Shown here piece by piece: positions 2,285-13,945 of a stretch of DNA of 64,000 nucleotides. A program made the translations under genes and the position numbers. The notes under the pieces were generated by a model. The model was not told the origin of the DNA, did not search any database, and saw nothing but the letters and a program-made list of their open reading frames with translations. Every line of letters starts with the position of its first letter. The first letter of the stretch is position 1. This DNA comes from Geminicoccaceae bacterium (GTDB lineage Bacteria; Pseudomonadota; Alphaproteobacteria; Geminicoccales; Geminicoccaceae), in the NCBI GenBank assembly GCA_025062095.1, contig JANXAZ010000012.1, forward strand, positions 1 through 64,000. Direction: 5' to 3'.

Positions 2285-3230
2285 CCTTGCCTCCCTGCTG
2301 CCATTTCCGGCGCGCCAGCGCGAAGTAGCTGAACACCGTGGCGAACACCAGGAACGGGATCATCGACACGGCGATCGCCGCCCCTTCTCCGAGCTGGCCT
2401 CCCGGGATCGCCCGCTGGAAGGCGAGGGTGGCCATGAGATGGGTCGAGTTCGCCGGACCGCCGCGGGTGATCGCGTAGACGAGCTGGAAATCGGTGAAGG
2501 TGAAGATCACCGAGAAGGTCAACACCACCGCCAGGATCGGCATGAGCATCGGCAGCGTGATGTGCCAGAAACGCTGCCAGGAGCTGGCCCCGTCGATCAT
2601 CGCCGCCTCGTAGAGCGAAGGCGAGATCGTCTGCAGCCCGGCGAGGAGGCAGATCGCGACGAAGGGAATGCCGCGCCAGATGTTGGCGGCGATGAGCGAC
2701 CAGCGGGCGTTCCAGGTATCACCCAAGAAATCGATATAGGTGTCGCGCCAGCCGAGCACGTCGACCAACACATAAGATATGATCGAAAATTGCGCATCGT
2801 AGATCCACCAGAAGGCGATCGCCGACAACACCGTCGGGACGATCCAGGGCACGAGAACGATCGCGCGCAAGAAGGACTTGAACGGCAGGTGGTGGTTGAG
2901 CAACAGCGCCAGCCACAATCCGAGCACGAATTTCCCGATCGTGGCCACGAAGGTGTAGAAGAACGTCCACCACACAGCCGTGAGATAGGTATCGTCGTAC
3001 AGAAGCGAAACATAGTTCTCGAGCCCGACCCATTCGCCGGGGCGGCCGATGCGCGTATCGGTGAAGCCCAGCCAGATCCCCAGCCCCAGAGGATAGGTGA
3101 GAAAGATCAACAACAGCGACGCGGCCGGCAGCATACAGACGAAGACGAGGAACGGCTTCCAGTCGAACAGGCGGACGATCCAGCTCCGCTCGATCGGCGG
3201 AAGAGCCACCCGTTCCGTTCGCGCAGCCAC
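2277..3230 (-). CDS. Carbohydrate ABC transporter permease (MalF/UgpA type)
   Basis: First permease of the orphan pair, 317 residues. After an N-terminal cytoplasmic stretch there are six membrane segments and the EAA loop YEAAMIDGASSWQRFWHITL near residue 205-225, the ATPase-docking site. The partner MalG-type gene starts 8 bp inside its 3' end. It is the first gene of the transcript, with a 410 bp GC-rich gap upstream toward the divergent rtcA fusion gene. In most sugar ABC operons the periplasmic binding-protein gene precedes the permeases; here it is absent. Family assignment is firm; substrate is unknown. Confidence 0.92.
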   Translation of the reverse strand: MAARTERVALPPIERSWIVRLFDWKPFLVFVCMLPAASLLLIFLTYPLGLGIWLGFTDTRIGRPGEWVGLENYVSLLYDDTYLTAVWWTFFYTFVATIGKFVLGLWLALLLNHHLPFKSFLRAIVLVPWIVPTVLSAIAFWWIYDAQFSIISYVLVDVLGWRDTYIDFLGDTWNARWSLIAANIWRGIPFVAICLLAGLQTISPSLYEAAMIDGASSWQRFWHITLPMLMPILAVVLTFSVIFTFTDFQLVYAITRGGPANSTHLMATLAFQRAIPGGQLGEGAAIAVSMIPFLVFATVFSYFALARRKWQQGGKDE

Positions 3231-3640
3231 CGTGCCCCTCCCTCGCGCCGCTTCCGCTCCGAACTAGCGCAGCCCGACCCCGGCGGGTAGCCCGCCGCGC
3301 GCCTGCGGTCGAGAGGCAGCGCGATTTCCGATCCCGTCGATTTCGCAAGGCCCGCGCGCGGGCGCACCATCCCCCTCGCGCGCCCTCGCCGCGGCGCTCC
3401 TCCTCCGCGCTCTCCTTCTGCGCTCCGGGCCGCGGCGCGCGCGGGTGAAGCCCGCGCGGCAGCGCTCTCCCACCGGAGCGAAAAGGAACTCCGCGCGCTC
3501 CGCGGCGTGTCGCGCGCCGCGGGCTCTCCCCGGTTCTTCCGAGTGTTCGCGCCGAGCCGCGCGGCTGCCGTCCCCTCGCTCCTTTCGCCGAGCGGGCCGG
3601 CCGTGGCAGGATGAGCGGTGCAGCGCGAGGGGCGGAAGCC
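3231..3640. other. Divergent intergenic region, no gene seen
   Basis: This 410 bp gap separates the leftward permease pair from the rightward RtcA-THUMP gene and must hold both promoters. I see no convincing reading frame and no clear -35/-10 pair. It contains one perfect 14-nt palindrome, GCCCGCGCGCGGGC, at 3350-3363, unremarkable at this GC content. Just before the RtcA start is the purine-rich stretch GAGGGGCGGAAG, a plausible ribosome-binding site for the ATG at 3641. Confidence 0.5.
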
Positions 3641-5386
3641 ATGACCGAGGAGGCGATGCGGATCGACGGCTCGATCGGCGAGGGCGGCGGGCAGATCCTG
3701 CGCACCGCGCTCGCCGTCGCCGCGCTCACCGGGCGCCCGCTCGAGATCGTCAAGATCCGCGAGAAGCGGCCGATCCCCGGCCTCGCCGCCCAGCACCTCA
3801 CGGCCGTGCGGGCGCTCGCGGCCCTGTGCGACGCCCGCCTCGAAGGCGCCGAGCTCGGCTCGCGCGAGCTCCGCTTCGCCCCGAGCGGACCGGTGCGCGC
3901 CGGAAGCTACGCGATCGACGTGGGGGCGGCGCGCGCGGGCGGAAGCGCCGGTGCGGTGAGCCTGGTGCTCCAGGCGGTGGCCGTGCCCTTGGCCCTCGCC
4001 CGCGGCCCTTCCGAGCTCCGCCTCACGGGCGGAACGCACGTCCCCTGGAGCCCGCCTTTCGACTACCTGGCCGAAGTGTGGGCCCCGATGCTCGCCCGGC
4101 TCGGTCTCGCGATCGGCCTCGAGCTCGAGGTCTCGGGCTGGTTCCCGGTCGGCAAGGGTTGCGTGCGGGCGCGCATCGAGGGGCGCGGGGGTCGCCCGCT
4201 CGAACCGCTCGAGGCCTCGCTGCGACCGGCGCTCCTGCGCATCGAGGGGCGTGCGCTCGCCGCCAATCTCCCGGCCGAGATCCCCCAGAGGATCAGCGAT
4301 CGCGCGCGCAAGCTCCTCGAGCCGCTCGGCGTGCCGCTCGTCATCCGTCCCGAGCGGGTGCGGGCCGCCTCGCCCGGGGCCGCCTTGTGCCTGGTCGCCC
4401 ATCACGACGGATGGCGCGCGGGCTTCGACTCCCTGGGCGCACCGGGCAAGGCTTCCGAGGTCGTGGCCGAAGAGGCGGCGCAGGCGCTTCTCGCCTTCGA
4501 GCGGGGCTCGGCCGTCGTCGATCGCCATCTGGCCGACCAGTTGCTCCTGCCCCTCGCCTTCGCTTCGGGGCCCTCGACCTTCTCGGCCGAAGCCGTCACC
4601 GGCCATCTCGAGACCTGTGCGTGGCTTCTGGACGCGCTCGGTGTCGCGCGCATCGCTCTCGAACGCCGGGAGGACGGAAGTGCGCTCGTGCGGGTCGAGC
4701 CCGCCGGGGTTCCCGTCCCGCTCGCCGAGCCGCGCGCCGAGCCGCTCTCCCTCCCCCCTTCCGAGCCCGCAGCGGCGGAGGAGGAACGCGCGCGGGCGCG
4801 CAGGCCGAGCGGGGAGCGTTTCCGCGCGCCCGGCCGGATGCCCGAAACCGTCCCCTGGAACCTCGTCGCCACGGTCCACGCCGAAGGCTGGCGCGAGGCT
4901 CTCGGCATCCTGGGGCGCTACGGGAAGGTCCACAAAACGCCTTATTACAACGTGCTCGTGATGGCGGTCGACGATCCCCGCGCCGTGGCCGAAGACCTCG
5001 CCGCGCGCATCGCGGCCGAACCCGGCATCCTCAACTTCCTCTCGCGCCTCGTTCCGCTCGAAGACGCATTCGAGCTCGGTCCCTTGGAAGGTGCCGCGGA
5101 TCGATTGTTCGCCGCTCTGGCACCGATGGTCCCGCGTCTGGCCGGAAGAAGCTTTCACGTCCGTGTGCACAAGCGCGGCCCCGGCAAGGCGCTTTCCGGG
5201 CACGAGCTCGAACGGCGGCTCGACGAGCGGCTCTTGGCGGAGCTCGAGGCGCGCGGCACGCCGGGTCGGATCGCCTTCGACGACGTCGACGTCGTCCTGG
5301 TGGTCGAAATCGTCGACGAGCGCGCCGGTGTCGCCGCCTTCGACCGCGGGGAGCGCGAGCGCTTTCCCTTCCTGCGCCTCGACTGA
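3641..5386 (+). CDS. rtcA: RNA 3'-terminal phosphate cyclase (RtcA) fused to a C-terminal THUMP-type domain
   Basis: A 581-residue protein, against about 340 for ordinary RtcA. Residues about 1-345 are a complete cyclase, which converts RNA 3'-phosphates to 2',3'-cyclic phosphates through a histidine-AMP intermediate. Visible motifs are DGSIGEGGGQILRTALA at the start, EKRPIPGLAAQHL, the glycine-rich GGTHVPWSPPFDYL, and the catalytic histidine in DRHLADQLLLPLA (about residue 296). A Pro/Ala/Glu/Arg-rich linker (about 350-400) leads to a 180-residue module (about 400-581) resembling archaeal/eukaryotic Tan1-THUMPD1 proteins: an N-terminal alpha/beta part (WNLVATVHAEGWREALGILG) and a THUMP-like core, FHVRVHKRGPGKALSGHELE through DVVLVVEIVDERAGV. 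THUMP domains bind tRNA acceptor ends. The ATG at 3611 is also in frame but lacks a spaced ribosome-binding site; 3641 has one. No rtcB or rtcR lies nearby. The cyclase call is firm; the THUMP call rests on motif resemblance. Confidence 0.9.
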   Translation: MTEEAMRIDGSIGEGGGQILRTALAVAALTGRPLEIVKIREKRPIPGLAAQHLTAVRALAALCDARLEGAELGSRELRFAPSGPVRAGSYAIDVGAARAGGSAGAVSLVLQAVAVPLALARGPSELRLTGGTHVPWSPPFDYLAEVWAPMLARLGLAIGLELEVSGWFPVGKGCVRARIEGRGGRPLEPLEASLRPALLRIEGRALAANLPAEIPQRISDRARKLLEPLGVPLVIRPERVRAASPGAALCLVAHHDGWRAGFDSLGAPGKASEVVAEEAAQALLAFERGSAVVDRHLADQLLLPLAFASGPSTFSAEAVTGHLETCAWLLDALGVARIALERREDGSALVRVEPAGVPVPLAEPRAEPLSLPPSEPAAAEEERARARRPSGERFRAPGRMPETVPWNLVATVHAEGWREALGILGRYGKVHKTPYYNVLVMAVDDPRAVAEDLAARIAAEPGILNFLSRLVPLEDAFELGPLEGAADRLFAALAPMVPRLAGRSFHVRVHKRGPGKALSGHELERRLDERLLAELEARGTPGRIAFDDVDVVLVVEIVDERAGVAAFDRGERERFPFLRLD

Positions 5387-5512
5387 GGCTCCGGACCACG
5401 GACGAAAAAGCGTTCGGCCCGCGCACACGCGCCCGGCAGTCCGAGCCAACGAGCGCTAGGCGAGGAAGAGGTCGGTGCGCGGCGCGCGCGGCCGAGCGGC
5501 TGTCCAGCGCGC

Positions 5513-9566: not shown

Positions 9567-9623
9567 GCGGATGTCGCGGCGCCTCGAGACGGCCCGTGGC
9601 GCCGAATGGGTCGGAGGAAGTTC

Positions 9624-10895
9624 GTGGCGTTTTCCGCGGTCGGCGCGATCCGGGGCGACGACGAGCTCTACCCGCCGCGCGCGCGGGGCGGGTTGGATCC
9701 TCGGCGGCCGGGCGCGTTCGCGGAAGAGCTCGCCCGCTTCCGTCGCGCCTTCCTCGCCAAGCCGCCCCCCCGCGCGGGCTTCTTGCCCATCCTCGAGCTC
9801 GACCGACTCAAGGAGCATCTGGGTCGACGCTGGCCGGAGCTGCGCGGCAAGGTGTTCGCCAACGTCGAGGGCTGCATCGCCCGCCGGCTCGAGCCCGAGG
9901 AACACTATCTTCTCGTCGACGAGACGACGGTGTGGGTGCTGCCGCTCGCCGCCGACCGCGGCGAGGTCGCGCGGCGTGCCGAGCTCGTGGCGGCCGAGAT
10001 CACCGAACGGCTGCTCGGCCTGACGCCCGGCGGGCGTTTCGTGCGCCTGCGCCTGCTCCCGTTCGATTTCGGCAGGGGCCTGCGGAACGTCGCGGGCTTC
10101 TTGAGCCTGCGCGAGCGGGTGGAAGAGGCGCGGCGGAGCTGCGCTTCGTGCGAGGCGCGTGCTTTCCGCGAGCACGCCGATCGACTCCTCGCGCTCTGGC
10201 GCCCGGTACTCGCCATCCGGCTCGGGCGCGTCGTGGGTTATCAGGGGTTCGCCCGCCTGATCGCGCCCGACGGCTCGGCTCGCGCACCCACCGACATCTG
10301 CCCCGATTGCGTGACCGGAGCCTTCGAGGCCGAGCTCGACCGCTGGTTCCTCGAGCAGGCGACGTCCCATCTCCTGAAGCCTTCGCCACCGAACGCCGAT
10401 CCTCCGGTGCTGGCCATTCCGGTGCACGGCTCCACCCTCGCCACACCCGGCTTCCGGACGTCCTGGCGGGACCGGCTCTTCGCTCTTCCGCCGCGGCTCG
10501 CTCGGCACCTCTTCCTCGAGATCGTCGATCCCGATCTCGACCTCTCCCCTTCTCGTCTCGCCGCGATGCTCGAACCGCTCGAAGGCCGCATCGGCCTCGT
10601 GCTCGTGCGCGTGCCCCCCGATCCCGCGGCCGTGCGGCCGCTCGCCGGCACGGCCGCGCGCGTCGCGGCGATCGACGCCTCCGAGCTGCGGCCGGAAGAC
10701 GCGGACCTGCACTCGCGCCTGGCCGAACTCGCGCGGGCCTGCCGCGAGGCGGGACTGCGCAGTTTCCTCTTCTCGGCGAACGACGAGATCCTCGCGCGGG
10801 AGGCCTGCGCCGCGGGCGTCGATTACATCGCCGGCGACGTCTTCCTCCCCGCCCTCCGCGTTCCGGCACTCGTCCCCGCGAACCGGTCGGCCTGA
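9624..10895 (+). CDS. Degenerate EAL-domain protein
   Basis: A 423-residue protein whose C-terminal half aligns by pattern with EAL cyclic-di-GMP phosphodiesterase domains but is stripped of catalytic residues. VVGYQGFARLIAPDG stands where active enzymes have VxGxEALxR, so the catalytic Glu is Gln. LEIVDPDLD replaces LEITE, and the DDFG metal motif has no counterpart in RIGLVLVRVPPDPA. The closing AGVDYIAGDVFLP matches the normal GxDxxQGxxFxxP end. The N-terminal 180 residues may be a similarly eroded GGDEF-like or sensory domain; I cannot name it. A GTG at 9624 is preceded by GGAGGAAG with 6-nt spacing and is a better start than the ATG at 9606. Likely role: a c-di-GMP-binding or purely protein-interacting regulator, not an enzyme. 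Confidence 0.75.
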   Translation: MAFSAVGAIRGDDELYPPRARGGLDPRRPGAFAEELARFRRAFLAKPPPRAGFLPILELDRLKEHLGRRWPELRGKVFANVEGCIARRLEPEEHYLLVDETTVWVLPLAADRGEVARRAELVAAEITERLLGLTPGGRFVRLRLLPFDFGRGLRNVAGFLSLRERVEEARRSCASCEARAFREHADRLLALWRPVLAIRLGRVVGYQGFARLIAPDGSARAPTDICPDCVTGAFEAELDRWFLEQATSHLLKPSPPNADPPVLAIPVHGSTLATPGFRTSWRDRLFALPPRLARHLFLEIVDPDLDLSPSRLAAMLEPLEGRIGLVLVRVPPDPAAVRPLAGTAARVAAIDASELRPEDADLHSRLAELARACREAGLRSFLFSANDEILAREACAAGVDYIAGDVFLPALRVPALVPANRSA

Positions 10896-11951: not shown

Positions 11952-12839
11952 TCACGCCTCCGCTCCGACCGCCGCGCGCGCCTGCGCCGAGCCCGCACCG
12001 GTCGGCTCGGCGGCGGCCCGGACGGTGGCGACGACGAATTCCGGAGGCACGCCCAGGCGGATCGGCAAGACGCTCGTCCCCACGCCCGAGGTGACGAGGA
12101 GATGCCGCTTGCCGATGCGGTGCAGGCCGCGCGCGAAGCGCCGCGGCAGCGTGCTCATCGTCACCAGGGGACCGATGCCGGGCAGGCGCACCTGACCGCC
12201 GTGGGTGTGTCCGGCGACCACGAGCAGCACTTCCTCGGGCAGATAGGCGACCGCATCCGGCACGTGGCTCAGAACGATGGCGGGACGCGCGGGGTCGAGG
12301 CGCTCGAGCACCGCCAAAAGATCGGTGCGGCGGCTGATCGCGCAGCCCAACCCCGCGACCTGAAGCGCGGTTCCGGCGAAGGCGAGCTCGACGACCTCGT
12401 TCTCGAGCACGGCGATCCCCGCCCCTTCGAGGGCGGCGCGCAAGCCGTGACCGGCACCGCGGTGCCAGTCGTGGTTGCCGAGCACGGCCAGGGTGGGGGC
12501 GGCGCGCGCGAGCGGCGCGAGCGCCGCGGCGATCGTCGCGCTCGGAAGCGGGCGCACGAAAGCGGTGCGGTTGGCCAGGAAATCGCCGGGCATGAGCACG
12601 AGATCGGGGCGCTCGGCGATCACCCGCGCGACCACGCGCGCGAGCCGACGCTCGCCCAGATGCGGCCGCGCCGCGTGCAGATCGCCCAGGATCGCGAGGC
12701 GCAGCGGCCGAGCGCGGGCCGGCCAGCGCGGCGACGCGACCTCGTAGCGAGCGACGCGGAGCCGGCGCGGCTCGACGAGCCCGGCCCAAGCCGAGACCGC
12801 GGCGGCGCCCGCGGCACCGAGCCAGAACAACTCGACCAT
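11952..12839 (-). CDS. Membrane-anchored metallophosphoesterase (YkuE/YaeI-like)
   Basis: Calcineurin-like phosphoesterase of 295 residues with a hydrophobic N-terminal anchor (VELFWLGAAGAAAVSAWAGL). The five metal-binding blocks are present in order: ILGDLHAARPHLG, MPGDFLAN, LGNHDWHRG, LSHVPD and GHTHGGQVRLPG, as in YkuE/YaeI-type enzymes implicated in envelope lipid pyrophosphate hydrolysis. The ATG at 12839 was chosen because the longer frame upstream lacks family similarity. The substrate is not determinable from sequence. Confidence 0.88.
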   Translation of the reverse strand: MVELFWLGAAGAAAVSAWAGLVEPRRLRVARYEVASPRWPARARPLRLAILGDLHAARPHLGERRLARVVARVIAERPDLVLMPGDFLANRTAFVRPLPSATIAAALAPLARAAPTLAVLGNHDWHRGAGHGLRAALEGAGIAVLENEVVELAFAGTALQVAGLGCAISRRTDLLAVLERLDPARPAIVLSHVPDAVAYLPEEVLLVVAGHTHGGQVRLPGIGPLVTMSTLPRRFARGLHRIGKRHLLVTSGVGTSVLPIRLGVPPEFVVATVRAAAEPTGAGSAQARAAVGAEA

Positions 12840-12979
12840 GTGCCCGAACCTTTTCGGAGCGAGCGCCTCATAGCACGCTGGCCGCCCCTTGGGGAGGAAC
12901 GATGTCGCACCCTCGGGTACGGCCCGGGGAAAAGCCCCGATGCCCGCGGCCGATCCGGGACCTTCGCTCGGCTCCGCCC

Positions 12980-13945
12980 TCAGATCGCGGGGCAGGGCTC
13001 GCCCCCCGCGCCGTTCGCGCGTTCCCGCTCCGCGCGCAGCGCGCCGTTGAGCTGCGCACCCAGGATGAAGATCGCGGCGGAGATGTAGAAGAAGAAGAGC
13101 GTGACGATGATCCCGGCGAGACTGCCGTAGGTGACCGAGTAGGACGCGGGAAGCGACGCGAGATAAGCCGAATAGAGCTCGGCGGCGAGCGCCCACGAGG
13201 CCACCGAGAGCAAGGTCCCGGGCAAGACGTCCCGCAAGCGCAAGGGCACGGTCGGCAGCACGAGGTGAAGCGTCACGGTGAGCGCGAACAACATCCCCAG
13301 GCCCAAACCGTAGCGGGCCCAGAACCACAGATCGCGCGCGAACAGCTCGTGCTCGCCGAGCCAGGCCGCGATCCGGCCGACGAGCGGAAGGCCCACGAGC
13401 GCGAACATGGCGATCAGGATCGCGAGGGCCACGAGCACGACCAAGACGAGGCTCTGCAGCCGCGCCCAGAGAAAATGAGTCGGCTCGGGACAGCGATAAG
13501 CGCGATCGAGGACGTGGCGGATCGCTTCCAGGCCCGAAGAGGCGAACCACAGGGAAACGACGATGCCGAGGCCGAGAAGCCCGCGCGGAGCGCCCCCCAG
13601 GATCTCGGCGATGACGGGTCGCAACACGGCGGCGACCTCGGGCGGGACGAGCTCGAGGCCGAGCTCGATCGAAGCCCGGGCGGCCTCGCTCTGACCCAAC
13701 ATCCCGGCGATCGACAAGAGCACGATCAAGAAAGGAAAGAGCGCGAAGAGCGCGGCGAAGGCGACGTAGCCCGCGACCACGAGACCGTCCTCGAAGAACA
13801 GATGATGGAGCGCGCGCCCGAACGCGCGGCCCAGTCGACGCAACGGCTCGAGCCCGCGCAACTGACGCAGCGACGCCGGATACGGCGCGGCGGGTCCGGG
13901 CTCAGCCGGAGCCGGCTCGGGCAGCGAGGGCGAGGCGTCGAGCAT
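12980..13945 (-). CDS. YihY/BrkB-family inner-membrane protein
   Basis: Six-helix membrane protein of 321 residues of the YihY family (formerly mislabelled RNase BN). Diagnostic segments are the amphipathic start GLVVAGYVAFAALFALFPFL, SGLEAIRHVLDRAYRCPEP, and the C-terminal YGSLAGIIVTLFFFYISA followed by the GAQLNGAL motif. The likely start is the ATG at 13945; its first 43 bases overlap the 3' end of the upstream cation-transporter gene, so the two are coupled. Function of the family is unresolved; envelope transport or an accessory role is proposed. Confidence 0.9.
   Translation of the reverse strand: MLDASPSLPEPAPAEPGPAAPYPASLRQLRGLEPLRRLGRAFGRALHHLFFEDGLVVAGYVAFAALFALFPFLIVLLSIAGMLGQSEAARASIELGLELVPPEVAAVLRPVIAEILGGAPRGLLGLGIVVSLWFASSGLEAIRHVLDRAYRCPEPTHFLWARLQSLVLVVLVALAILIAMFALVGLPLVGRIAAWLGEHELFARDLWFWARYGLGLGMLFALTVTLHLVLPTVPLRLRDVLPGTLLSVASWALAAELYSAYLASLPASYSVTYGSLAGIIVTLFFFYISAAIFILGAQLNGALRAERERANGAGGEPCPAI

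Follow-up and report, generated by a model that had tools for sequence, protein, structure and literature searches.

The window, which is the whole 64,000-nucleotide stretch of DNA analysed here, carries a single stop-free frame of 581 codons on the forward strand (3641-5386, by translation of the window), which encodes an RNA 3'-terminal phosphate cyclase (RtcA) followed by a variable linker and by a C-terminal tail with the predicted fold of a ferredoxin-like domain (NFLD) and a THUMP domain. The features of this gene are:

3641..5386, forward strand: RtcA-NFLD-THUMP fusion gene, 581 codons plus stop, with orthologs in 6/6 genomes of the genus searched
3641..4705, forward strand: RtcA domain (RNA 3'-terminal phosphate cyclase), residues ~1-355 (Pfam RTC, TIGR03399, alignment with E. 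coli 1qmh)
4226..4495, forward strand: RTC insert domain, residues 196-285 (Pfam PF05189, 68.9 bits against a cut-off of 23)
4604..4606, forward strand: codon of His322, the counterpart of His309, the nucleophile that is adenylated in E. coli RtcA (alignment with 1qmh)
4706..4849, forward strand: variable linker, probably disordered, about residues 356-403 (low identity among orthologs, dN/dS, pLDDT)
4850..5080, forward strand: predicted ferredoxin-like (NFLD) part of the tail (predicted strand and helix order, fold matches; boundary drawn by eye)
5081..5383, forward strand: predicted THUMP domain, residues ~481-581, bearing the motif SFHVRVHKRG....S..ELER (Pfam matches of the family, ThiI motif, Foldseek; boundary drawn by eye)

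In-frame ATG codons occur at 3611, 3641 and 3656, and the GAGGGG that stands ahead of the ATG at 3641 is a plausible ribosome-binding site. An antisense gene of 780 codons that would span the whole fusion gene (3107-5449, reverse strand) was considered and rejected, such open frames being common in GC-rich coding DNA; the antisense frames of the orthologs match one another too, as expected for mirrored coding sequence.

The presence of a full RtcA in this frame, proposed in the initial annotation, is borne out by profile searches. The window protein scores 233.8 bits against Pfam RTC (cut-off 27, residues 12-336) and 355.7 bits against TIGR03399 (cut-off 250.05, residues 7-337), in addition to the RTC insert match given above; against a further RtcA model, NF003246, it comes out slightly short of the cut-off (347.1 against 352). 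Among solved RtcAs, the highest score against the window protein is that of 4o89 (219.9 bits), followed by that of E. coli 1qmh (162.8 bits). When the window protein is aligned with 1qmh, His309 of the E. coli enzyme falls on H322, within TGHLETCAW, a position occupied by histidine in all 22 RtcAs aligned. The catalytic histidine had previously been placed in DRHLADQLLLP; that residue is H296, which is histidine in 15 of the 22 sequences and Tyr or Trp in the other seven, and the assignment has been moved to H322. Of the further active-site residues, E14, Q18, R21, R40 and R43 are invariant in 22/22 RtcAs, and Q51 is present in 21/22. In the RtcA reaction, as outlined in PMC6277466, His309 attacks ATP and becomes adenylated, and 3'-phosphate ends are converted to 2',3'-cyclic phosphates. 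Judged from its sequence, the RtcA part of the fusion is complete and active-looking, with ATP-dependent conversion of 3'-phosphate to 2',3'-cyclic phosphate as its predicted activity. The catalytic domain, the insert domain and the nucleophilic histidine are common to the fusion and to E. coli RtcA (1qmh, TIGR03399), from which the fusion differs by the C-terminal NFLD and THUMP domains, and by belonging to a clade for which the stretches examined show neither an intact rtcB nor an rtcR adjoining the gene.

The last ~180 residues of the window copy are matched by no Pfam or NCBIfam model. Within the family alignment of eight members (A6), Pfam THUMP (PF02926, cut-off 20.6 bits) matches five, at E values up to 1: the stand-alone protein P0004, at 22.2 bits, is the only one clearly over the cut-off, the ortholog in genome G005 is borderline (20.8 bits together with its neighbours in the frame, 19.0 when cut out), and L023, L024 and L017 lie under it (15.4, 17.2 and 14.1 bits). 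No Pfam THUMP match was obtained for L021, for P0003, or for the stand-alone protein of genome G799, which is outside A6. A profile built from the eight family members, run against 398 Pseudomonadota genomes, matched 33 at E<=0.001, comprising the source genome of the window and 32 others (best E among the latter 3.6e-9); an NCBIfam scan of seven such loci identified six as ThiI over the cut-off, and the seventh, a 131-residue piece, has no match. Two further THUMP-matching sequences (L025, L026) were discarded as relatives of the tail, their open reading frames looking ThiI-type by eye. Searching PDB sequences with the tail gave no match, and the two PDB matches of the tail profile (E 0.19 and 1) were not considered credible.

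Structure prediction points in the same direction. The predicted order of elements in the tail is strand-helix-strand-strand-helix-strand, then helix-strand-helix-strand, suggesting a ferredoxin-like domain followed by a THUMP domain. Confidence in the fold model of the tail, built on five sequences, is low, with a mean pLDDT of 64.4, and in a model of the full-length fusion the RtcA part is mostly confident and the tail less so. A comparison of this region with THUMP proteins had been put forward in the initial annotation as a check, and it agrees with the annotation as far as a low-confidence model allows: all nine Foldseek rows against the PDB at E<=0.001 are chains of Trm14, PH1313, TrmN or ThiI (E 6.1e-6 to 5.4e-4), and in VIA-align the THUMP domain of THUMPD1 (2dir) aligns with Z 7.0 and an rmsd of 3.0 over 76 residues. 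By the latter method, THUMP enzymes give Z 6.6-8.4, including Trm14 (Z 8.4, rmsd 9.7 over 147 residues) and PH1313 (Z 8.4, rmsd 7.7 over 133 residues); because unrelated ferredoxin-like chains reach Z 7-8 on the NFLD half, this method adds little for that half. A tail composed of two domains, NFLD and THUMP, in the order found in ThiI and Trm14, is therefore supported by the models, which upholds the THUMP assignment and refines the single THUMP-type domain of ~180 residues originally described into a predicted ferredoxin-like domain plus THUMP.

Among known proteins, the tail invites comparison with ThiI, the tRNA 4-thiouridine synthetase, whose NFLD and THUMP region has the same domain order and fold and shares with it the sequence motif F-x-V-R-x-(K/H)-(K/R)-x-G ... 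E-(R/K). In contrast to ThiI, the fusion shows no sulfurtransferase (PP-loop) domain among its Pfam and NCBIfam matches over the 581 residues, and its tail sits behind a cyclase. Most of the residues that contact ACCA in Thermotoga maritima ThiI also differ: the window copy retains only Val105 of those named, and Gly126 is present in 4/6 orthologs. These contact residues vary among ThiIs as well. With pI values of 5.2 and 6.4, the module is not basic.

The initial annotation had suggested searching other genomes for this domain order. The fusion is present in all six genomes of the genus that were searched, the source genome counted, and the tail is found in 0/25 other genomes of the order. 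Identity to the window copy is 73-80% among the orthologs, and the locus is the same in all six genomes, with a divergent ABC-transporter permease gene on one side and a convergent gene next to the fusion. The stretch between the two parts, which had been annotated as disordered, is indeed variable and poorly predicted, with 28-53% identity to the five orthologs and pLDDT below 50 at residues 376-385 and 387-400. In comparisons with these orthologs, the dN/dS ratio ranges over 0.17-0.32 in RtcA, 0.12-0.21 in the NFLD part and 0.07-0.23 in THUMP, and the linker has values of 0.38-0.97, indicating purifying selection on both RtcA and the tail and far less on the linker. RtcA without the module occurs in 5/11 RtcA genomes of the order, and in 12/14 of the non-fused RtcA genomes in a draw of 385 genomes of the class.

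Neither rtcB nor rtcR lies beside the fusion gene. The opening 15 kb of the window and the 20 kb surrounding the gene in genomes G002 and G005 showed no rtcR-like ORF, nor did the rtcA or rtcB locus of the source genome. RtcB matches were obtained in 16/16 genomes tested, the six fusion genomes among them, each of which has a single rtcB, located on another contig or, in G005, 1.6 Mb from the fusion. In the source genome, rtcB lies behind archease on contig C61, in a cluster of archease, rtcB and an S30AE/cold-shock domain (CSD) gene. The idea of a system operating without rtcB is thereby not supported. In a tree of 22 RtcAs (excluding G010 and G186, over the cut-off, and G164, under it), two clades are separated with 100/100 support. 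One comprises seven RtcAs, with an rtcR-like gene adjoining in 7/7 (three confirmed by Pfam) and rtcB in 6/7. The other comprises the six fusions, the RtcAs of G117 and G213, and seven more; around rtcA of its nine non-fused members, no intact rtcB was found within the fetched 3.5-20 kb. Whole-genome search, which covered eight of these nine (all but G156), places rtcB on another contig in seven; the eighth is G055, whose sole RtcB match is a fragment of 43 positions (L118:12419-12544, contig G055:C35) 3.4 kb from rtcA, perhaps a remnant. That the window gene has no rtcB or rtcR next to it, as correctly noted in the initial annotation, is therefore usual for the clade and not the anomaly it was taken for. 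The enterobacterial rtcBA-rtcR operon has the RtcA and RtcB enzymes in common with the present system and differs from it in that here rtcA and rtcB are unlinked, rtcB stands beside archease, and neither locus has an rtcR-like ORF.

Homologues of the tail also exist as separate proteins of ~180 residues in three other Alphaproteobacteria (G117, G213 and G799), with 36-44% identity to the tail of the window copy. When 385 genomes of the class were searched with a profile of the six fusion tails, eight matched at E<=0.01: the fusions of G000 and G005, the stand-alone proteins of G117 (158 bits) and G213 (130 bits), and four weak matches (G065, G410, G144 and G006, E 0.002-0.009), which were set aside; at G410 and G144 the locus itself was inspected and the match put down to chance. 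A second draw of 387 genomes, for which a completeness of at least 97% was asked, gave three matches at E<=1e-4, namely G005, G213 and G799, the last at 178.8 bits and alone in a frame of 180 residues. The two draws overlap, and at most eight candidates were scored per genome, so that some tail homologues may have been missed.

The distribution of the stand-alone proteins links them to the Rtc enzymes. RtcA is over the cut-off in 16 genomes of a class draw of 385, taken to be identical with the draw of 385 searched for the tail, and two of the 16 carry fusions; G117 and G213 both have RtcA, compared with 14 RtcA-positive genomes among the 383 non-fused (P=0.0012, treating genomes as independent, with few cases). 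G799, listed as 100% complete, has no RtcA, and over the three stand-alone cases the link is therefore 2/3 (P=0.004 at the same rate, genomes again treated as independent, on few cases). In three other genomes of the genus of G117, one of them 78% complete, neither tail nor RtcA was found. The stand-alone gene of G117 and G213 lies on a different contig from rtcA and rtcB. In G799, the THUMP gene (L121:9920-10456) ends 1,895 bases upstream of rtcB (12351-13781; Pfam RtcB 549 bits), which has archease immediately upstream; between the THUMP gene and archease lie a same-strand gene without assignment and an oppositely oriented hydrolase gene, making this a neighbourhood rather than one operon. 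A random gene would lie within 2 kb of a single rtcB in a 6.1 Mb genome with a chance of ~0.0009, a value uncorrected for rtcB having been picked after the fact.

Mobile elements were also considered. P0004 has no match in plasmid sequences at 1e-5, while P0001 matches 44 plasmid and 4 phage records; coverage stays below 80% in every case, and among the matches listed none extends past residue 354. Viral contigs were dismissed as a source of relatives (15 pattern matches, 0 relatives), and models of anti-phage defence did not match any of the three proteins compared with them.

From these observations a mechanism can be proposed. The NFLD and THUMP tail would hold on to structured RNA, in all likelihood a broken tRNA gripped by its acceptor arm, and the flexible linker of ~48 residues would bring the 3'- or 2'-phosphate of the broken end within reach of the cyclase; the RtcA part would turn this phosphate into a 2',3'-cyclic phosphate, and archease-RtcB, encoded elsewhere in the genome, would use the cyclic phosphate end for ligation. 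Such binding would be in keeping with ThiI, whose NFLD and THUMP hold the tRNA acceptor stem and the ACCA end according to PMC4041423. For Salmonella, PMC7790460 describes induction of the Rtc operon as needing tRNA fragments together with RtcA, and implicates the operon in tRNA repair. We consider it somewhat probable that the fusion is an RtcA directed by its tail to structured RNA, with the acceptor arm of broken tRNA as the likeliest target, and that it feeds archease-RtcB. Several observations weigh against this reading: most ACCA-contact residues of ThiI differ in the tail, although they vary among ThiIs too; the module is not basic; its fold model is weak; the window copy matches no THUMP model; many RtcAs lack the module; and in G799 the stand-alone gene occurs in a genome devoid of RtcA and outside any operon with archease-rtcB.

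The main rival to a tRNA target is rRNA: the tail may instead direct the cyclase to ribosomes, for the repair of cleaved rRNA in stressed or hibernating ribosomes. THUMP domains occur also in the RNA methyltransferases RlmKL and RlmM, as noted in PMC4041423, and among the fold matches of the tail these appear at E 0.002-0.012. S30AE/CSD genes follow rtcB in the source genome and in G005; in G799 one occurs close to the THUMP gene, and in G213 close to rtcA. PMC10901736 names RtcB as an rRNA repair factor and, like RaiA, as a neighbour of Balon genes. Set against this, the nine best fold matches are to the tRNA-acting Trm14, TrmN and ThiI, plus PH1313, and the profile matches scanned are ThiI in six of seven cases, which leaves the rRNA target an unlikely reading.

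Rather improbable, too, is that the fusion joins two functions that do not act on one RNA, the tail serving as a general RNA-affinity handle or as a binder of a protein partner, with the substrates of the cyclase unchanged. The long and poorly conserved linker, the lack of overall positive charge on the module and the close RtcA relatives that manage without it would all be accommodated by such an arrangement, which is harder to reconcile with the retention of the fusion in 6/6 genomes of the genus and with stand-alone homologues that accompany rtcA in two of three genomes and lie near rtcB in the third. Finally, a sequencing or assembly join of two separate genes, or separate production of the tail by internal initiation, can practically be dismissed: the window copy has an in-frame ATG at codon 400, but the five orthologs have no counterpart (Met only) at or next to that place, both ends of the protein are constrained, and an assembly error is refuted by the occurrence of the fusion in six genomes, at the same locus and in an uninterrupted frame, one of them the single-contig complete genome of Geminicoccaceae bacterium KatS3mg117.

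The proposal extends to the stand-alone proteins. The module would be the substrate-targeting part of the Rtc RNA-repair system, and in some other Alphaproteobacteria would work with RtcA or RtcB as a separate protein of ~180 residues. Tentatively, and with somewhat less than even confidence, we suggest that the NFLD-THUMP proteins free of a catalytic domain form a small family of RNA-recognition subunits of archease-dependent bacterial Rtc repair, which would act in trans with RtcA or RtcB, became fused to RtcA in one genus, and would be to RNA-end healing in bacteria what Tan1/THUMPD1 is to tRNA acetylation. Tan1 pairs with the RNA acetyltransferase Kre33. THUMPD1 is described in PMC5355103 as the adaptor of NAT10. 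The concept is alike, a THUMP protein serving a separate RNA enzyme, with the difference that the partner here would be the cyclase/ligase system; the likeness to Tan1 is conceptual only. Searches of the literature on RtcA with THUMP and on RtcA fusions retrieved no description of an RtcA-THUMP protein among the matches listed, in line with the initial annotation, which knew of none.

The significance of the fusion lies in the question of which RNAs RtcA serves. A cyclase with its own, predicted, RNA-gripping module is a natural experiment that offers a handle on this question: binding of broken tRNA by the tail would give direct support for RtcA in tRNA repair, and binding of rRNA would give direct support for ribosome repair. 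The stand-alone homologues carry the same question to a genome that has RtcB and no RtcA (G799).

Several neighbouring genes are recorded here as observations in their own right. A gene with an S30AE (hibernation-factor-like) domain and a cold-shock domain directly follows rtcB in the source genome (L112:11156-11722) and in G005 (L114:8958-9524), the G005 copy being assigned by similarity only. Further S30AE/CSD genes are found in G799 (L121:7477-8337), 1.6 kb from the THUMP gene on the side away from rtcB, and in G213 (L111:6915-7493), 2.3 kb from rtcA. A protein-L-isoaspartate methyltransferase gene adjoins rtcA in G213 (L111:9057-9791) and in G017 (L113:8960-9775), which belong to different families. 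Elsewhere in the window, positions 9621-10892 of the forward strand encode a protein of 424 residues whose EAL domain match slightly exceeds the threshold (34.8 bits against a cut-off of 31.3, residues 185-409).
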